A stretch of 64,000 nt of DNA, from NCBI RefSeq assembly GCF_011207455.1, contig NZ_CP048877.1:798576-862575 (forward strand). The letters run 5' to 3'. The notes below the pieces were generated by a model. The model made no database searches and was not told the DNA's origin. It worked only from the letters and a program-made list of their open reading frames with translations. The translations under genes were made by a program, and so were the position numbers. The DNA comes from Thermosulfuriphilus ammonigenes (GTDB lineage Bacteria > Desulfobacterota > Thermodesulfobacteria > Thermodesulfobacteriales > ST65). This document shows, piece after piece, positions 8,012 through 36,911 of the stretch; the first letter of the stretch is position 1, and each line of letters opens with the position of its first letter.

Positions 8012-8962
8012 ATGTGGGTATCTGGTTTAAAAAAACTAAACATTAGTGTCTTTTTTCAACTTCCAGTAAACGTCTTCCTGGTTCGTCATCTGCCACTGGG
8101 GCTCTATCGCCTTTACTTGTGGATGTTGGGTTTTCTGTTTCTTCTCTTTAAGGAAAAAACCCGCCGTAACGTAATTGTGGGGCTTAATTACCTAACCAGG
8201 GCCAAACCCCTCCCCCAAATGCTCCCTATCTATGTCCTTAAGACCTATCTCGGCATTTTTGAACATTATCTGGAAAAACTCCTCCTTGGCTATCGTCCCC
8301 TATCCGAAATGATCGACTTCCTCCGCCCCAGACTGAGGGTATCCAAAAGATATCTGCTTGATCAGATCAAGGGGAAAGGGGCCATTCTGGTCACCGGACA
8401 TTTCGGAGCCGTGGAGTTTCTTCCCCTGGCCCTGGCCCTTTTAGGCCATAAAGTGGCCATCATTTGTCGTTTTAAGCGACCAGAGCTTAAAAGAGAACTC
8501 AGTCGGCGGGCCCAAAAAATGGGGGTTCAGATTATCGACGCCAATGAAGGCCACGTGGCCACTAGGGCCATTGGCCTCCTTAAACAGGGCTATATTTTGA
8601 TCACCGAATGTGACGAATTTGAAAACTGGCGTCCCTATCCGGATCGCCACACTCTCTTTCTCGGAGCCAGAGTGCCTCTAGACCGAACCCTCGATATCTT
8701 CTATCGACGGGCCCGGTGCCCTGTACTCCTGGGGCTTATGCGTCGTGATGAAAATGGCTATACCCTCTGCCTTGAGCCCCTGGCCGGGGGAAGGGAACAT
8801 GCCGAAATCGCTGCCAGGGCTTTAAAAGTTCTTGAAAAATATATTCTAGAGAGCCCCGAACAGTGGTATCAGTGGCCAGAGGCCGTGGAAGAGCTACAGC
8901 CATATATCAATTGGGATGAAAACTATGCGCCTGAGACTCTATCGCCTGCGTCTTCCCTTTAA
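8012..8962 (+). CDS. LpxL/HtrB-family lipid A acyltransferase-like protein
   Basis: About 316 aa. This family adds secondary acyl chains to lipid A or related glycolipids at the inner membrane. A membrane segment is seen at about residues 33-46 (LYLWMLGFLFLLFK), and the catalytic HX4E motif is H130-F-G-A-V-E135 in VTGHFGAVEFLPLAL. I start at ATG 8012 because AAAGGAGG precedes it; the frame is open upstream but poorly suited as protein. The gene end overlaps the start of the enolase-superfamily gene by about 38 bases. Exact acyl donor and acceptor are not readable. Confidence 0.85.
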   Translation: MWVSGLKKLNISVFFQLPVNVFLVRHLPLGLYRLYLWMLGFLFLLFKEKTRRNVIVGLNYLTRAKPLPQMLPIYVLKTYLGIFEHYLEKLLLGYRPLSEMIDFLRPRLRVSKRYLLDQIKGKGAILVTGHFGAVEFLPLALALLGHKVAIICRFKRPELKRELSRRAQKMGVQIIDANEGHVATRAIGLLKQGYILITECDEFENWRPYPDRHTLFLGARVPLDRTLDIFYRRARCPVLLGLMRRDENGYTLCLEPLAGGREHAEIAARALKVLEKYILESPEQWYQWPEAVEELQPYINWDENYAPETLSPASSL

Positions 8963-29540: not shown

Positions 29541-29771
29541 GACTCCTCCTTAAAAGAATTAAATCCCCACCCCCACCAAAAGTTAGGTACCAACCAAAGA
29601 CATGCCAACTAAAATTCTGATCATGGGGCCAAAAAGAGACTCCGCTTTAGGTTTCAGAAGATCTTTGATCCAGAAAGAGTCAGGAAACCCTGGGGCTGAC
29701 CTTAAGCGCTGGCATTTTTACTCCAACCCGTTATCGTTATCCTTTAGTGGAAACTCTCTTCCAGGGGGCGT

Positions 29772-29838
29772 GGATGAGACGCTTCGTCTACCCTTTCTCG
29801 GCCATCGTCGGCCAAGAAGAAATGAAGCTGGCCCTGAT
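29772..29838 (+). repeat. 67-bp direct repeat shared with 31802-31868 (copy 1)
   Basis: Bases 29772-29838 and 31802-31868, covering the first codons of the two chelatase-like genes, are identical except for one G/A difference; the final 60 bases are perfect. A second shared block of about 32 bases covers the [11 protein letters not shown] codons of both. Flanking codons differ at many silent sites. Confidence 0.9.
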
Positions 29839-31792
29839 GATTGCCGCCGTTGCCCCGGGGGTCTGCGGCGTCCTTCTGCGGGGAGAAAAGGGATCCGGTA
29901 AATCTACCGCCGCCCGGGCCCTGGCGGAGATCCTCCCGGAGATAGAGGTTATAGAGGGCTGTCTGTTTGGCTGCCGGCCCCAAGGCCCTCTTTGCCCCTC
30001 CTGCACCAGAGAGCAAAAGGGTCAGAGGCTTGTCAGGAGATCCGCCCCCTTTGTCAATCTCCCTCTCTCCATCACCGAGGATGCCCTCTTTGGAGCCATA
30101 GATTTTGAGGAGGCGGTAAGAAGCGGCCGCCGGAGGCTTCATCCGGGGCTGCTGGCCCGAGCCAACCACGGTGTTCTTTACATTGATGAGGTCAATCTTT
30201 TGGCTGACCACCTGGTGGCCGGGCTGCTCAGCGTGGCCGAAAGTGGCGTGAACATCGTGGAACGGGAGTCACTTAGTCTTATCCATCCGGCCCGCTTCAT
30301 CCTTATCGGCTCCATGAATCCCGAAGAAGGAGAGCTCTCTCCTCAATTCTTAGACCGCTTTGGTCTCTGCGTGACGGTCACCGGGGAAAAGAATCCGGAC
30401 ATCAGGGCAGAGATCATCCATCGCCGTCTCTGGTTTGAGAAGGCCCCGGACTCTTTTCGAGCCCTGTATGCAGACGAAGAGGCCAGGCTAAAGCAAAAAA
30501 TCCTCCAGGCTCAGAGGATTCTGCCTTCTGTCTCTCTGAGCCGGAGCATCCGATCCTTTGTGGCTGAACTTTGTCGAAAAAACCGGGTTCCCGGTCATCG
30601 AGCTGATCTCATTCTCCAGACGGCGGCTATGGCCCATGCCGCCCTAAACGGTCGCCTTGAGGTCACCTATGATGATGTCCTGGCTGTGGCCGATATGGTC
30701 TTGAGACACCGGCGTCGGGAGGCCGAAGCCAGACAGAAAAAAGATCCCCAGAGAGACCAGAAAGGGAGGAAGAAGCCCCCAGAGAAGGAGCCAGAAAAAA
30801 ATGAGGGCCAGGGGAAAAGCCCCCAGGTCTCCCAGGAGACCCATAGAAGAGAACGGTCGGAAGAAGGCCCAAAGGGGAGTGAGGCAGGCCTTAACGGCCC
30901 TTCACCACAGGATGATCCCCAACAGGTCTCGGAAAATGAGGGGGTTGATCAAATCTTTGAGGTAGGAGAGACCTTCACTGTAAGACCATTTTCTACCCGA
31001 GCCGATCGCAAAAGACGCTGGGCCCGTTCCGGGAGACGATCGGCCACCTTAAACAAGCATCCTCGAGGACGATTTGTCCGGGCAGTTATCCCTCAAGGCC
31101 GGGTGAGGGATCTTGCTGTGGCCGCCACCATCCGGGCCGCTGCTCCCTATCAGGCCCTCCGCGGAAGAGACAGCGGGCGCCTCATCATTCGTGAAGAGGA
31201 TCTCCGAGAAAAGCTCCGGGAGAGCCGGACGGGCCATCTGCTTTTTTTCTGCGTTGATGGCTCAGGTTCCATGGGGGCTGAGGCCCGAATGGCTGAAACG
31301 AAAGGGGCCATCATGAGCCTCCTGCTCTCGGCCTACCAACGACGAGATCGGGTAGGATTGATGATCTTTCGGGGAAAGGAGGCCCAGATGGTGTTGCCTC
31401 CGACAAACTCCGTGGAGATAGCCGCCAGGATCCTCGAGGGTCTCCCTGTGGGAGGTTCAACCCCTCTTTCTGCCGCCCTCTTGCGTCTGGAAGAGTTTCT
31501 CCGACAGACCCTGCGCCGCGAACCAGACCTCAAGGTTACCGTGTTTCTTATCACCGATGGTCGGGGCAACGTAAGTCTTACCGGAGAAAAGCCCCGTCAG
31601 GAAATCGAGGCTTTAGCTCGCCGCCTAGCGGAGGGGTTCCCTCAAGTGGAATTTGTGGTCATTGACACCGAAACTGGCCTGATCAAACTCCAAATGGCCC
31701 AAAGGCTGGCGACTCTTCTTGAAGCCCGGTATTTTACCCCCGAGGCCCTCCGGGCGGAGGAGATGGTTCGCATCGCCAAAGAGATCCTCTGA
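29774..31792 (+). CDS. Magnesium/cobalt chelatase D-like AAA+/vWA ATPase
   Basis: The protein is 672 aa. N-terminal AAA+ module with intact Walker [10 protein letters not shown] (37-45) and Walker [10 protein letters not shown]; a four-cysteine cluster C63, C67, C74, C77; a proline- and charge-rich linker (about 320-395); and a C-terminal vWA domain with MIDAS residues DGSGSMG, GGSTPL and TDGRGN. Start is ATG 29774 (AGGGGG site). BchD of phototrophs has lost its ATPase site; this one has not. No BchH/CobN large subunit is in the window, so it may serve an unlinked cobaltochelatase or act as a MoxR/vWA-type chaperone. Confidence 0.85.
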
Positions 31793-31801
31793 GGAGGTTG
31801 C

Positions 31802-31868
31802 GGATGAAACGCTTCGTCTACCCTTTCTCGGCCATCGTCGGCCAAGAAGAAATGAAGCTGGCCCTGAT
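31802..31868 (+). repeat. 67-bp direct repeat shared with 29772-29838 (copy 2)
   Basis: This is the second copy of the repeat described at 29772, at the 5' end of the I-like gene. The distance between copies is 2030 bases. Confidence 0.9.
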
Positions 31869-32817
31869 TTTAAATGTCATTGATCCTTCCATCGGTGGAG
31901 TCCTTATCCGGGGCGAAAAAGGGACTGGCAAATCCACTGTGGTTAGAGCCCTGGCGGAGATCCTCCCGGAGATAGAGGTGGTCGAAGGTTGCCCCTTCCA
32001 GTGTGACCCTGAAGACAGAGACCATCTCTGCCCCCAGTGTGAGGAAAGGCTTCGTTCCCAGGGGAGCCTGCCCCATATTAGACGAAAGATACGGGTGGTG
32101 GATCTCCCTCTTTCGGCAACCGAGGACCGAGTGGTAGGGACCCTAGACATCGAGGCTGCCCTGAAGACGGGTAAAAGGCGCTTTGAACCCGGTATTCTGG
32201 CCGCGGCTAACCGGGGGATTCTCTACGTAGACGAGGTGAACCTCCTCGATGACCACCTGGTGGACACCCTTCTTGACGCTGCGGCTATGGGCATCAATTT
32301 TGTCGAACGGGAGGGGCTCAGCTTTGCCCATGCGGCCCGCTTTGTGTTAGTGGGGACCATGAACCCCGAGGAAGGAGAACTAAGGCCCCAGCTCCTTGAT
32401 CGTTTTGGGCTCTGCGTCACCGTGGAGGGAATCAGGGACCCAAACTCCCGGGTTCTCATTATGGAGCGCCGGGCAGCCTTTGAGGCTGACCCTGAGGGCT
32501 TCTGTCGCCGGTTTGCCGAAGAGAATCAATCTCTGTCGGAGAGAATTAAGACGGCCCGTGAGAGGATAAAAGAGATAGATATCCCCAGAGAGCTTCTTTA
32601 TGAAATTGCCAAAAGGATAGTCACCCTAGGGGTTGACGGTCATCGGGCCGACTTAACAGTGGTCAAGACGGCCAGGGCCCACGCCGCCTTCCGCGGCCAA
32701 TGCCAAATAAGCGAGGAAGACATCCGGGTGGCCGAAACCTTAGCCCTGCCCCACCGCCTAAGACGTCGCCCCTTTGAAGAGATTGGCACCCCCGCGGCTT
32801 CTCGGCTCAGTCAGTAA
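31804..32817 (+). CDS. Magnesium/cobalt chelatase I-like AAA+ ATPase
   Basis: About 337 aa. Walker [10 protein letters not shown] (37-45), a four-cysteine cluster C63, C67, C76, C79 in the same place as in the D-like protein, Walker [10 protein letters not shown], the [40 protein letters not shown] sensor region, and a C-terminal helical bundle with [28 protein letters not shown] six bases before ATG 31804 decides the start. It follows the D-like gene by 11 bases. Its first 65 residues are nearly identical to those of the D-like protein. The 3' end overlaps the convergent ABC_ATPase gene by 11 bases. Confidence 0.88.
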
Positions 32818-34519
32818 GTTGCTGGACTTTCAGGCTCCTTAGACGATTGATGGCGGCTGCCACCTCAAAGGAGCGGGGGAAGGCCAGATCTCCCGCCGGA
32901 TAGCCCACCAGGGCATCAAAGCCCTTCTGCCTGATGAGTTCAAGGGCCATCTCCACGCCCTCCCTGAGACCAACTCCTTTGGGGGCTAAGTGGTGGCCGA
33001 AGTAGCGGATAATCTCGGCGATAGTCCGGGCCTGGGAGTCATCCACCAGTTGTTCTACCAGGGAGACATCGATCACCTCTTGGCCAAAGATGATCTCTCT
33101 CAGCCCCCGGGTTTTGACCCTTTCGCGCCGCCCTCTTCGGGGCTTAAAGCTCTCCGGGAGAGGACGGCGCGGGCAAACCAGACCGAAGCTGTCCCCTCCC
33201 TCTGGCTGCCGACGGCTAGGAAGACGGCGGCCTACCTCTCGGGCCCTGGCGGTAAGGTCATAAACGCGATAGTTATCAAGGGCAATAACTCGATCGGCCA
33301 CATCGAGATAGTCTCCTGAGCCTCCAAGAACAAGAATAGTCGAGACCCCATAGTCCCGCAGAAGAAGACGCACCTTATCCACAAAAGGCACAATGGGTTC
33401 CTTGTCTCGAGGGATAAGGGCCTGCATCCGGGCATCGCGGATAAGAAAGTTGGTGGCCGCAGTGTCTTCATCTATAAGCAATACCTTAGCCCCTATTTCT
33501 AGGGCCTCCATGATGGCCGCGGCCAAAGAGGTTGAGCCCGAGGCGTCCTCGGTAGAAAAAAACCTGGTGGAGCGTCCCAGGGGAAGATCGGCAATGAAGG
33601 GGGAGATGTCCACCCCAGCCACAAAACGGCCATCTTCACTCCGGACCTTAACCGCCCGGGAATGGGTAATCACCCACTGTCGGCCATCTCCGGGGATATG
33701 GGGATAGACTCCCCGGGATAGGGCTTCAAGGAGGGTGGTCTTGCCGTGAAAGCCACCCCCGACGATAAGGGTTACCCCTGAAGGGATACCCATCCCCGAG
33801 ACGGATCCATGGTGTCTGGTATCCAGCTTAACCCTGAGCTCTGGGGGGCTTGAGAAGATCACCGCTCCCTCTTTAAGGGGGCGATCATCCACCCCGGAGC
33901 GGCGGGGGAGGATGGCTCCATCTCCCACAAAGGCCACCAGCCCCAGATCATCAAGCTGGCCCCTGATGTATTCGACATCTTCAACCAGATCAACAAAGGC
34001 CTCTAGCTCACGGGCCGGATGAAAAGAGTATCTCAGGGCCCGGGCCGCCCGGGGAATTTCTTCCAAGATCATGGAAAGGGCCGTTTGGCCTAAAATCCTC
34101 CTTCCGGCAGCCGGCAATCCCATAAAGAAGCGAACCTCGACGAACTCCTCTTCAACCAGGCATCCAGAACGAAAGATTATCTCCTGACCCCCGGCATCGA
34201 CCCGGTAAAGGCCGCTTCCTCCTGTCCCTCGGGGCCTGGAGAGGGCCTTGAGCTCTCGGGCAAAGGCCCGGAGGATATAGTCTTGAAGGGCCATCTTCCG
34301 GACTTGGTTGCTCAGAAGCGCCGCTGGGAAACGGGCCTCGGCCATGGCCAACCTCACCCGGACCCGACTGGGGGCGGCAAAGGGATCTCCCTGGGCCCGA
34401 TCCAGGTAGAAAGACAATTCTGGGGCCAGCCGATAGATGCCTTCTAGCTCCCGATAGGCCTTATAGCCTCGGCCGTCGAGACGAGAAAGGAGACTTTTTA
34501 GCTCAGAGACAGTCTTCAT
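32807..34519 (-). CDS. ABC_ATPase (PF09818-type) P-loop protein
   Basis: The protein is 570 aa, a predicted soluble ATPase of the family sometimes annotated isopentenyl-diphosphate delta-isomerase-like or ABC-class ATPase. N-terminal domain starts [18 protein letters not shown]; the P-loop is [15 protein letters not shown] (about 250-264), followed by [37 protein letters not shown] signature region, Walker [17 protein letters not shown] and the [20 protein letters not shown] box. A trypanosome relative works in RNA editing and binds RNA. The bacterial role is unknown. It is alone on its strand, convergent with the chelatase pair. Confidence 0.85.
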
Positions 34520-34607: not shown

Positions 34608-34814
34608 TTATTGGGCCTCGATGGGGCCGGTCTCTTCAATCTCTAGAGAAACTCCGGGAAGGGCCTCTTTGAGCCGGCGCTGGAGATCTGGAGTGGAGCT
34701 TGATACCAAGACCTTTACCCGGAGGGGGATCTCCGTTAAAGGAATCTCATAGCCAACGATAATTCCCTGATACATAAGTTCGTTAAGGACGGCCTCTATT
34801 TCTTCCTTGTTCAT
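34608..34814 (-). CDS. Small hypothetical protein (68 aa)
   Basis: The protein starts at ATG 34814 (AGAGGTG just upstream) and reads as a mixed alpha/beta small domain with no cysteine or membrane segment. It lies 88 bases upstream of the ABC_ATPase gene on the same strand and may be co-transcribed with it. No family recognised; codon use and the ribosome-binding site are the support. Confidence 0.5.
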   Translation of the reverse strand: MNKEEIEAVLNELMYQGIIVGYEIPLTEIPLRVKVLVSSSTPDLQRRLKEALPGVSLEIEETGPIEAQ

Positions 34815-34888
34815 GGTCACCTCTTCTCAGCGAATTTATCCTGACGGATTCTGAAACGCCATTTTCCGTAAAGAAGAAAGCAATCAAG

Positions 34889-34928
34889 CAAAAAGGCGGG
34901 AGAAAACCTCACCGGTTCAACTCCCGCC
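34889..34928 (-). terminator. Rho-independent terminator of the protease module
   Basis: On the minus strand, GGCGGGAG (34921-34928) pairs with CTCCCGCC (34895-34902), with an internal GAACC/GGTTTT stem, and is followed by TTTTTGC. It lies 30 bases after the stop of the beta-domain gene and defines the end of that transcription unit. Confidence 0.85.
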
Positions 34929-34957
34929 CTGCCCACCTCCTCCTCCCGGAGGCCGGA

Positions 34958-35878
34958 TCAGGCGAACTCAAACCTTACCCCAGGGATAAAAATACAGTCT
35001 GGATTCCGGAAGCTAAGAGTGGCCAGGGTTCCACTACCCTCGGTCTCCACCCGAAGCCTTAACGACACCTGGGCGATAACCCATTTATTGGCTCCCACGG
35101 CCATCGAGGCCGAGTAGAAGGCCTGATAAAGGTCCAGACGGCCGCTTTCATTAATGTTGTCATCGGCTCGCCGGAAAAGACGTCTTTCCACCGTGGGGCT
35201 CCAGTAGTTCTGATAGAGCCTAACAGAGGCCCGCAGATCTACCACGGCCTCCTTGGAGTTCCACCATTTGTCGTTAGATCGAATCTGATACCAGCCTCGC
35301 GTGACCACAGGTAGGAAAACCCTCACCGTGCCAATCTTTCGGGGCCAAAAGGCATAAAAGAACCGGCCATAGGTGGTTACGTCGTTGTCATCAGTCCAGC
35401 CCAGACCATCTCCCTGGGCATGGGCATAGAGAAACATTTTTCGAGAGGCCCGACTGCCTGAGCAACTGCCCCTGGTAACGCCTCCCTCATTGTGACGACT
35501 CACGTGACACCAGAAGTGATATGGAGTGACATCCAGATAATGACCAGGGGTTCCTCCGGAGACGACATTGGTCTCCAGCACTAACTGGTCGAGAATCTCC
35601 TCTCCCACTGTCTCCACACAGAGACCCTCCTCTTTTTGAAGCTGAAAGGCTTCCTCGGTCTCCCGGGCCTTAATTTCGGCCAGTTCTTTCTCCTTCTGAA
35701 TCTCTGCTTCAATGGCCTCGGGCTTAAATTTGAGGTGTTTAATGAGCTCCAGCATCTCCGCCTCGCTCTCCTGGCCCTGTTCTTTCTTATCCAAAATGGC
35801 TTGTTCCATCTGGGCCACCTCAGCAGCCACCTCCATCTCTGAGGCCTCATTCAAAAAGTTTTTATCAAACATTTCCAT
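34958..35878 (-). CDS. Coiled-coil plus beta-domain protein paired with protease, unknown function
   Basis: The protein is 306 aa with no signal peptide or membrane segment. Residues about 10-95 are highly charged, Glu/Lys-rich and predicted coiled coil; residues about 105-306 are rich in Trp, Tyr, Phe, Arg and beta strands (TPYHFWCHVSRHNEGG, GRFFYAFWPRKIGTVRVFLPVVTRGWYQI, SLRLRVETEGSG), like a jelly-roll or lectin-type domain. AAGGAGGAGAG precedes the ATG. It follows the trypsin-like protease by 52 bases and shares its promoter and terminator. It may be the protease's substrate, its targeting partner, or a structural effector. I do not recognise the family. Confidence 0.65.
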   Translation of the reverse strand: MEMFDKNFLNEASEMEVAAEVAQMEQAILDKKEQGQESEAEMLELIKHLKFKPEAIEAEIQKEKELAEIKARETEEAFQLQKEEGLCVETVGEEILDQLVLETNVVSGGTPGHYLDVTPYHFWCHVSRHNEGGVTRGSCSGSRASRKMFLYAHAQGDGLGWTDDNDVTTYGRFFYAFWPRKIGTVRVFLPVVTRGWYQIRSNDKWWNSKEAVVDLRASVRLYQNYWSPTVERRLFRRADDNINESGRLDLYQAFYSASMAVGANKWVIAQVSLRLRVETEGSGTLATLSFRNPDCIFIPGVRFEFA

Positions 35879-35930
35879 ATTCTCTCCTCCTTACAGAATT
35901 TTTTGCCGCCACATCAGGAGGTGTGCTCCT

Positions 35931-36857
35931 TTAGGCGGTCAAGATTTCTATTCCCAGGGCAATAAGGACATTGTGGATATTGTTGTGGATGGTTACGGCT
36001 GAAGAGCCAGCAAAAAGAAGCCCTACCGCTCGACCATCACTAGATAGCAACAGAGAACCAGAGTCTCCTCCCCGGGACATATTGGTAGTCAGGATCTGGT
36101 TGCGGAAAAAACCCACCTTCCCTCCCCCGTAGCGGACGCCTACGGTGACATCCACTCCCCGGACGATGCCCCGGGTGTATTGGGTAGTCCGACCAAACTT
36201 GACCACCTTCATCCCCAGACGAGCCACGGTAGTTCCCCTCGGAATTTCCCCGTTGGGGAAATAGGGCATGACATAGCGATAGTCTATGGGGCGGGCCAGG
36301 GCAGCATCGACCAAGTTATAAGCCCCTCGGCCAAAATGAATGGGGACAAAAGCTGCCAATCGACCGATGACCCGAGGTTCACAAGGACGCCGATCATAGG
36401 GGCCGGGCTGGAGAATAGGATCACCGATGCGGGCGTTGTTGGAGTTGGCCAAGACGTGGTTGTTAGAGAGAATATAGACTCCGCTACAACATTTACTTTT
36501 CACCAGAGCTCCAAAGGTGCCAGCCGTAATACGATAGTGACCGATACTGTAGCCAGGCCGGGCCGGCCGGATACAGGCCGTATAGGTTTGAGCCTCAATT
36601 ACTCCTACCTCCACCACATCGGTGGGCAGGCCATCTACGGTCTCAGGAACCAGAGCTTCAGCAACCAGCTCCTTTTGAGGAAGCTTTTTTTCCACATAGA
36701 CCTGAAGGCAGAGATCGGTAGTTTCTTTACCCCCCACCTCCTTGTAGCCGATACCCACCCCCAGAACGTTGGCCTTATCCAGGAACTCTTCCTCGACCGC
36801 GGCTTTAATTTCCTGGATCTTGACGACCATCTCCTCTATGGATGCAGACTGTTCCAT
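35931..36857 (-). CDS. Cytosolic trypsin-fold serine protease (Nal1-like)
   Basis: The protein is 308 aa and lacks a signal peptide. N-terminal helix and a NVLGVGIGYKEVGGKETTDL...LQVYVEKKLP...GLPTDVVEVG module (residues 30-85) precede the protease domain, as in Nal1-like bacterial trypsin homologues. The triad is His134 (LSNNHVLA), Asp184 (NLVDAALA) and Ser266 (SRGGDSGSLL). I start at ATG 36857 because AAAGGAGG lies eight bases upstream and because the sigma-54 transcript start (about 36884) lies inside the longer open frame. First gene of a two-gene operon. Absence of export signals in both proteins suggests intracellular action. Confidence 0.8.
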   Translation of the reverse strand: MEQSASIEEMVVKIQEIKAAVEEEFLDKANVLGVGIGYKEVGGKETTDLCLQVYVEKKLPQKELVAEALVPETVDGLPTDVVEVGVIEAQTYTACIRPARPGYSIGHYRITAGTFGALVKSKCCSGVYILSNNHVLANSNNARIGDPILQPGPYDRRPCEPRVIGRLAAFVPIHFGRGAYNLVDAALARPIDYRYVMPYFPNGEIPRGTTVARLGMKVVKFGRTTQYTRGIVRGVDVTVGVRYGGGKVGFFRNQILTTNMSRGGDSGSLLLSSDGRAVGLLFAGSSAVTIHNNIHNVLIALGIEILTA

Positions 36858-36894
36858 AAGAAGGCCTCCTTTTTTGTATTTATTGGTATCTTCT

Positions 36895-36911
36895 AGCAAC
36901 ATCGGTGCCAC
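36895..36911 (-). promoter_or_regulatory. Sigma-54 (-24/-12) promoter of the protease operon
   Basis: On the minus strand the sequence is GTGGCACCGATGTTGCT. It matches the YTGGCACGRNNNTTGCW consensus at all but two positions, with GG and GC exactly ten bases apart. Transcription would start near 36884, 27 bases before the protease ATG. Confidence 0.75.

Follow-up and report, generated by a model that had tools for sequence, protein, structure and literature searches.

The module described here is real, conserved and one gene larger than first described: besides a NAL1-type protease and a predicted coiled-coil/beta-sandwich partner, it includes a small protein that is a putative relative of the N-terminal domain (NAL1_N) of the protease itself. 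It is apparently undescribed, and we know of no published account of it. The locus lies in a window of 64,000 nucleotides (the whole stretch of DNA analysed), which is part of the complete 2.29 Mb genome of Thermosulfuriphilus ammonigenes, a thermophilic sulphur bacterium of the order Thermodesulfobacteriales. The preliminary description had proposed an undescribed-looking two-gene module with a dedicated partner. The pair is real and supported by ten intact loci, but the boundary was drawn too narrowly: a third gene (34608-34820) lies beyond the partner, and its product, which had been missed, is the more widespread companion of the protease.

Gene layout and sequence signals

The open reading frames of both protease and partner were recovered at the coordinates first assigned to them. 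All features listed below lie on the minus strand.

36865..36869, minus strand: Shine-Dalgarno sequence GGAGG of the protease gene, read from the sequence
35931..36857, minus strand: protease coding sequence, NAL1-type, 308 aa (ATG at 36857, stop side 35931)
36582..36800, minus strand: NAL1_N-like N-terminal domain of the protease, about residues 20-92 (Pfam PF25608 at residues 20-78; NAL1 crystal-structure alignment)
36456..36458, minus strand: catalytic His134, codon CAC (invariant in 19 homologues; aligns with the N-H-H-V motif of NAL1)
36306..36308, minus strand: catalytic Asp184 (invariant in 19 homologues)
36060..36062, minus strand: catalytic Ser266 in GDSGS (GDSG invariant in 19 homologues; aligns with GDSGS of NAL1)
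35886..35891, minus strand: Shine-Dalgarno sequence AGGAGG of the partner gene, read from the sequence
34958..35878, minus strand: partner coding sequence, 306 aa, coiled coil and beta-sandwich
35624..35866, minus strand: Glu/Lys-rich helical segment of the partner, about residues 5-85 (AlphaFold helices)
35546..35623, minus strand: partner linker, residues 86-111, with the EE-LD-LET-V-G motif (low model confidence at 79-104; invariance pattern)
34961..35545, minus strand: predicted beta-sandwich domain of the partner, residues 112-306 (all-beta model, pLDDT mostly 70-93)
34889..34930, minus strand: intrinsic-terminator-like hairpin with U-tract, 3' of the partner gene (fold z -3.3)
34608..34820, minus strand: third gene, stand-alone NAL1_N-like, 70 aa, GTG start (ATG at 34814 also possible)

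The strong ribosome-binding sites noted at the outset are confirmed: AAGGAGGCCTTCTT-ATG and AAGGAGGAGAGAAT-ATG contain good AGGAGG-type Shine-Dalgarno sites 7 nt 5' of both start codons (protease, partner). The proposed terminator likewise corresponds to a strong hairpin just 3' of the partner, with a 10-bp outer stem and a minimum free energy of -40.3 kcal/mol over a 78-nt stretch. The promoter that had been claimed was not recovered; a consensus search found 0 sigma-70-type promoters, with 2.4 expected by chance. No RNA element was detected. As the preliminary description had it, neither protein carries an export signal: the first 40 residues of protease and partner contain no hydrophobic segment (best 19-residue Kyte-Doolittle means of 0.54 and 0.22). 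The GC and GC3 contents of the module genes are similar to those of the neighbouring genes and hence give no sign of recent foreign origin.

The genes flanking the module differ from genome to genome. An ABC-class ATPase (PF09818; window 32807-34519) was considered as a further member and rejected, since it lies elsewhere in six module-bearing genomes; two genomes of another, unrelated family also place it close to a NAL1-type protease (L042:7205-8911; L043), a proximity that is probably coincidental. The module is immediately preceded by a gene for a BTAD-type or BTAD-like (SARP/MalT-like) regulator in four genomes of the order as well as in genomes G061 and G234, which together represent two lineages (loci L015, L016, L018, L019, L020, L046). 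No homologue of it was found in the genome of the window, and it was set aside as lineage-specific. Tandem AAA genes occupy window positions 29747-31792 and 31798-32817, the second matching Mg-chelatase ChlI; their nearly identical N-termini point to a duplication. In genomes G013 (L019:36-208) and G001 (L015:1-151), a CRISPR array with the 30-nt repeat GTTTGCAGCCTAACTAAAAGGAATGGAAAC, a spacing of 66-67 and a degenerate last copy ends about 225 bp past the small gene; the contigs break inside or beside the array.

A NAL1-type protease

NAL1 is the rice leaf-width protein, the product of a plant yield gene, and proteases of its type are known from bacteria, phages and archaeal viruses as well as from plants.

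Sequence comparison assigns the window protease to this type, with a predicted NAL1_N domain followed by a trypsin-fold catalytic domain. In Pfam, Trypsin_2 is matched above its cut-off (E 6e-7), and NAL1_N with E 6e-5 and a score of 23.1 bits against a cut-off of 27, which the orthologue in G001 exceeds. A profile of 19 protease relatives (A8) matched NAL1 in the PDB with E 3.5e-16, with one alignment covering the N-terminal domain and another the GDSGS region. The trypsin fold of the first description thus holds, as does its triad, which is intact and invariant across the 19 homologues. Nal1_C (PF25819) gave no match in the window protease at E up to 1, and a weak one in a Rhizobium relative; because of this absence, we file the protease as NAL1-like and not as a plant-type NAL1. 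It shares with the plant protein the order of NAL1_N (PF25608) and trypsin-fold domain, and its His and Ser motifs align with the crystal-structure sequences; it differs in being bacterial, 308 aa long, without a Nal1_C match and accompanied by two companion genes. Such companion genes are, to our knowledge, not known in plants.

Orthologues within the order are 73-77% identical. Further relatives were found in Aeropyrum coil-shaped virus, in a 484-kb phage record, on plasmids of several bacterial phyla and one haloarchaeon, and on 72 viral contigs. A strong full-length profile match links the protease to PHROG 20754 ('protease', E 4.9e-78), whose viral copies differ from the module in their surroundings: the 72 viral loci have neither the partner nor a clear stand-alone small gene. 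The relative in Aeropyrum coil-shaped virus is a putative serine protease (L054:4992-5972) with a NAL1_N domain. On two Rhizobium plasmids (L050, L051), a NAL1-type protease adjoins genes for radical SAM and HEXXH proteins of putative peptide modification, and a protein full of MHDQTHSEGG repeats is encoded as well; these loci look RiPP-like, as if made for peptide modification and equipped with a protease of their own.

Companion proteins of the protease

In each of the ten intact loci, which belong to several families of the phylum, the partner gene directly adjoins that of the protease. Orthologues with 61-63% identity are present in five further genomes of the order, the very ones that possess the protease; because the two proteins are conserved at 61-77% in these genomes and always adjacent, their pairing is more than chance. 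Distant partner homologues (44, 37, 26 and 24% identity) lie beside the protease in G234, G172, G408 and G280. Within a sample of 395 phylum genomes, eight contain the partner: seven copies are intact and adjoin the protease, and the eighth, in G061, is a deletion remnant, the only locus with a partner and no intact protease. In this remnant (L020:8656-8814, 8276-8512), the deletion has joined the first 16 protease codons to the final 37 of the partner; a 7-nt GATCGCC is common to the joints, and the small gene is left intact. Partner matches in named records all stem from MAGs of Thermodesulfobacteriales, including Thermodesulfatator. Outside the phylum, no homologues were found in phage or plasmid records or viral contigs, and scans of genome contigs yielded none beyond the same order.

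Five close homologues of the protease (in G202, G417, G210, G233 and G368) have no partner, and neither do the plasmid-borne and the 72 viral-contig proteases. Hence the partner depends on the protease, and not the reverse. The survey of neighbouring genes that had been suggested as a check on a dedicated partner gives a divided answer: ten loci from several families keep the partner, and the proteases just named lack it. Within one genus, the module is patchily present.

No known family was found for the partner in Pfam, NCBIfam, PADLOC or PHROGs. Trypco1 and Trypco2 gave no Pfam match at E up to 1 (the presence of both models in the library being unconfirmed). The AlphaFold model, based on an alignment of 10 homologues (A3; pLDDT 76, pTM 0.72), predicts long helices at residues 6-48 and 53-85, a low-confidence linker at 79-104 and an all-beta C-terminal domain, in line with the Glu/Lys coiled coil and beta domain proposed earlier. 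Residues 31-70 are 60% invariant among six orthologues; the six sequences, all of one order, are 9% invariant at residues 71-92 and 42% at 93-111. As anticipated, the beta domain is hard to place. Its best solved match is Bd1399 (PDB 8okh; E 1.8e-7), followed by carbohydrate-binding modules and TNF-like folds; in a viral library, tail fibres and C1q-like proteins were matched. We read the predicted domain as a beta-sandwich, without family assignment. The likeness to Bd1399, an elongated DUF4360-like beta-sandwich with a putative signal peptide and two disulfides (PMC10792529), is limited by a TM-score by target of only 0.48 and 8% identity; moreover, the partner has no export signal.

The small gene of the window lies 137 bp past the partner and beyond the terminator, so that co-transcription with the pair is not obvious there. 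Five orthologous loci of the order keep it at this position, and every orthologous locus has a short open reading frame directly after the partner; in the five order relatives, the spacing to the partner gene is -32 to +3 bp, so that the two overlap or abut. Distant loci encode a clearly NAL1_N-like protein of 69-79 aa in the same position, 64-603 bp past the partner. Profile-profile comparison pairs these divergent small proteins with the N-terminal domain of the protease at 98% probability (E 2.7e-14). An HMM built solely from small proteins outside the order finds the window protein with E 1.5e-4 and its orthologues in G001 and G013 at about 1e-3; conversely, the order-level profile of the window protein aligns with the divergent small proteins at 85% and E 6.6e-6 (hhalign). 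A direct comparison of the order's profile with the protease N-terminal domain was not significant, and a structural search with the model of the window protein gave no match below E 0.05. At the level of profiles, the window protein is a divergent relative of these small proteins, and its tie to the protease domain runs through them.

A profile search for the small protein in the 395 phylum genomes was compared with a census of NAL1-type proteases. At all 14 assessable loci (G000, G001, G005, G172, G210, G233, G234, G280, G334, G368, G381, G399, G403, G408), a stand-alone NAL1_N protein is encoded next to a NAL1-type protease; the two hits outside this set are the G061 remnant, whose protease is deleted, and a copy at a contig edge. 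A Rubrobacter plasmid carries the same pair of protease and small protein, and two Rhizobium plasmids have weaker small open reading frames beside the protease, on the opposite strand. Next to four exported proteases (L164, L167, L168, L172), the small protein is itself hydrophobic at its N-terminus. The match of compartments is imperfect, because a hydrophobic stretch lies in frame ahead of the small neighbour of one cytosolic-type protease (L047) and would be included with an earlier start. Five other exported proteases (L021, L166, L169, L173, L174) show a permuted order, with NAL1_N at the C-terminus, and the position of the domain is therefore free. N-terminal, C-terminal and separate copies together suggest that several positions allow the domain to work with the protease, the compartments of the two matching in most cases; by HMM score, the stand-alone proteins cannot be separated into the C-terminal and the N-terminal domain type.

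Proposed regulated proteolysis and alternative interpretations

We tentatively interpret the module as a self-contained system of cytosolic regulated proteolysis, in which NAL1_N controls the protease both in cis and in trans and the partner is a dedicated client; we regard this account as possible rather than probable. The small protein would act in trans as a propeptide-like inhibitor or as an adaptor, competing with or capping the built-in NAL1_N domain of the protease. In this account, the partner would most likely oligomerise through its Glu/Lys coiled coil and be cut by the protease in the linker, at about residues 79-111, which would free or re-arrange the beta-sandwich head. As candidate cut site we take the EE-LD-LET-V-G segment (93-111), which immediately precedes the beta domain and is conserved beside variable, low-confidence sequence. 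In favour of this mechanism, the places of partner and small gene are conserved across divergent families; further points for it are the restriction of intact partners to protease loci, the 14 protease neighbours of stand-alone NAL1_N proteins, the compartments shared with four exported proteases, the variable position of the domain, the profile similarity of the divergent small proteins and the invariant triad. Against it, the linker conservation comes from six sequences of one order, and the small protein of the window is divergent, without a direct profile match to the NAL1_N domain or a significant structural match. The terminator between its gene and the pair and the exception at L047 also count against the mechanism, and in the plant enzyme the NAL1_N domain is not known to us to be inhibitory.

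Each step has precedents elsewhere (PMC6993865, PMC12799240, PMC7159879). SUB1-ProM of Plasmodium, whose gene neighbours its protease genes, is a free-standing propeptide-like inhibitor with demonstrated inhibition (PMC6993865), and bacterial trypsin-like proteases are known to activate a paired partner by cleavage (PMC12799240). The SUB1-ProM gene resembles the small gene in its location beside the protease and in encoding, as a separate protein, the type of domain that its protease has at the N-terminus; it differs in that the protease belongs to the subtilisin family, with another N-terminal domain, and in that the inhibition shown there is for the module an inference. The proteins of these precedents are not relatives of the partner, and they therefore support the plausibility of the mechanism and not membership in a known system.

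The strongest competing interpretation, which we nevertheless consider doubtful, leaves the partner uncut: as an oligomeric scaffold or adaptor, it would build a higher-order protease particle through the coiled coil and recognise a substrate or ligand (protein or glycan) through the beta-sandwich. The conserved coiled coil (31-70), the dependence of the partner on the protease and a weak resemblance of the beta-sandwich to carbohydrate-binding modules and to TNF/C1q-like and tail-fibre heads are consistent with such a role. However, the fold matches are weak (0.48 at best) and generic for beta-sandwiches, and the conserved linker with its variable flank fits a processing site as well. A substrate appears more likely than a scaffold.

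Of the roles in stress response, phage defence or protein-shell assembly suggested at first, none is specifically supported (no PADLOC hit, no phage structural family, neighbours that vary by genome). A phage-defence or abortive-infection module, in which infection would release the protease and thereby activate the partner as a toxic effector, is improbable and not favoured. It draws on the plasmid NAL1-type matches, which fall in genes annotated as DNA/RNA non-specific endonucleases, as in NucA-trypsin conflict systems (PMC7159879), on nuclease-protease pairs as an established defence theme (PMC12799240), and on the patchy occurrence and the nearby CRISPR arrays in two genomes. Yet none of the three proteins matched a component model of PADLOC-DB 2.0, no defence island was recognised at the other loci, and the window contains no CRISPR. 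With the trypsin-like protease-nuclease pairs of Hachiman/AVAST (PMC12799240) and with NucA-trypsin (PMC7159879), the module shares a cytosolic trypsin-fold protease and a dedicated neighbouring partner, but its protease is not fused to a defence enzyme and it has no nuclease or sensor component. The partner, having no Pfam match and modelled as coiled coil and beta-sandwich, showed neither an MBL-fold or NucA nuclease nor any other effector domain.

Still less probable is a merely lineage-inherited gene order with no functional tie among the three proteins. All ten partner loci fall within one phylum, and partner and small gene are sometimes 340-600 bp apart, as such inheritance would allow; against this, the order is kept across families with differing neighbours and across 24-63% partner identity, and exported forms, as well as plasmids of other phyla, again show the small protein to depend on the protease. 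A domesticated phage maturation protease with the partner as structural protein for shell or tail assembly, suggested by PHROG 20754, the many viral contigs and the tail-fibre-like beta domain, is very improbable and likewise not favoured, given that the partner and any clear stand-alone small gene are missing from all 72 viral loci, that the partner has no PHROG match and that no phage structural genes were recognised in the flanks read.

Regulated proteolysis, if extended beyond this locus, would mean that stand-alone NAL1_N proteins form a family, widespread but unrecognised, whose members are dedicated to inhibiting or regulating NAL1-type proteases in trans, and that the partner is a new kind of protease-controlled client; we place this generalization on the unlikely side. 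As the domain is found N-terminal, C-terminal or separate, it is predicted to act on the catalytic domain from any position. With the protease, an apparent client and a separate relative of the presumed regulatory domain in one place, the locus offers a compact system of heat-stable thermophile proteins for both control and substrate. If true, the reading of the small protein as a stand-alone regulator would reveal the role of the N-terminal domain of plant NAL1.
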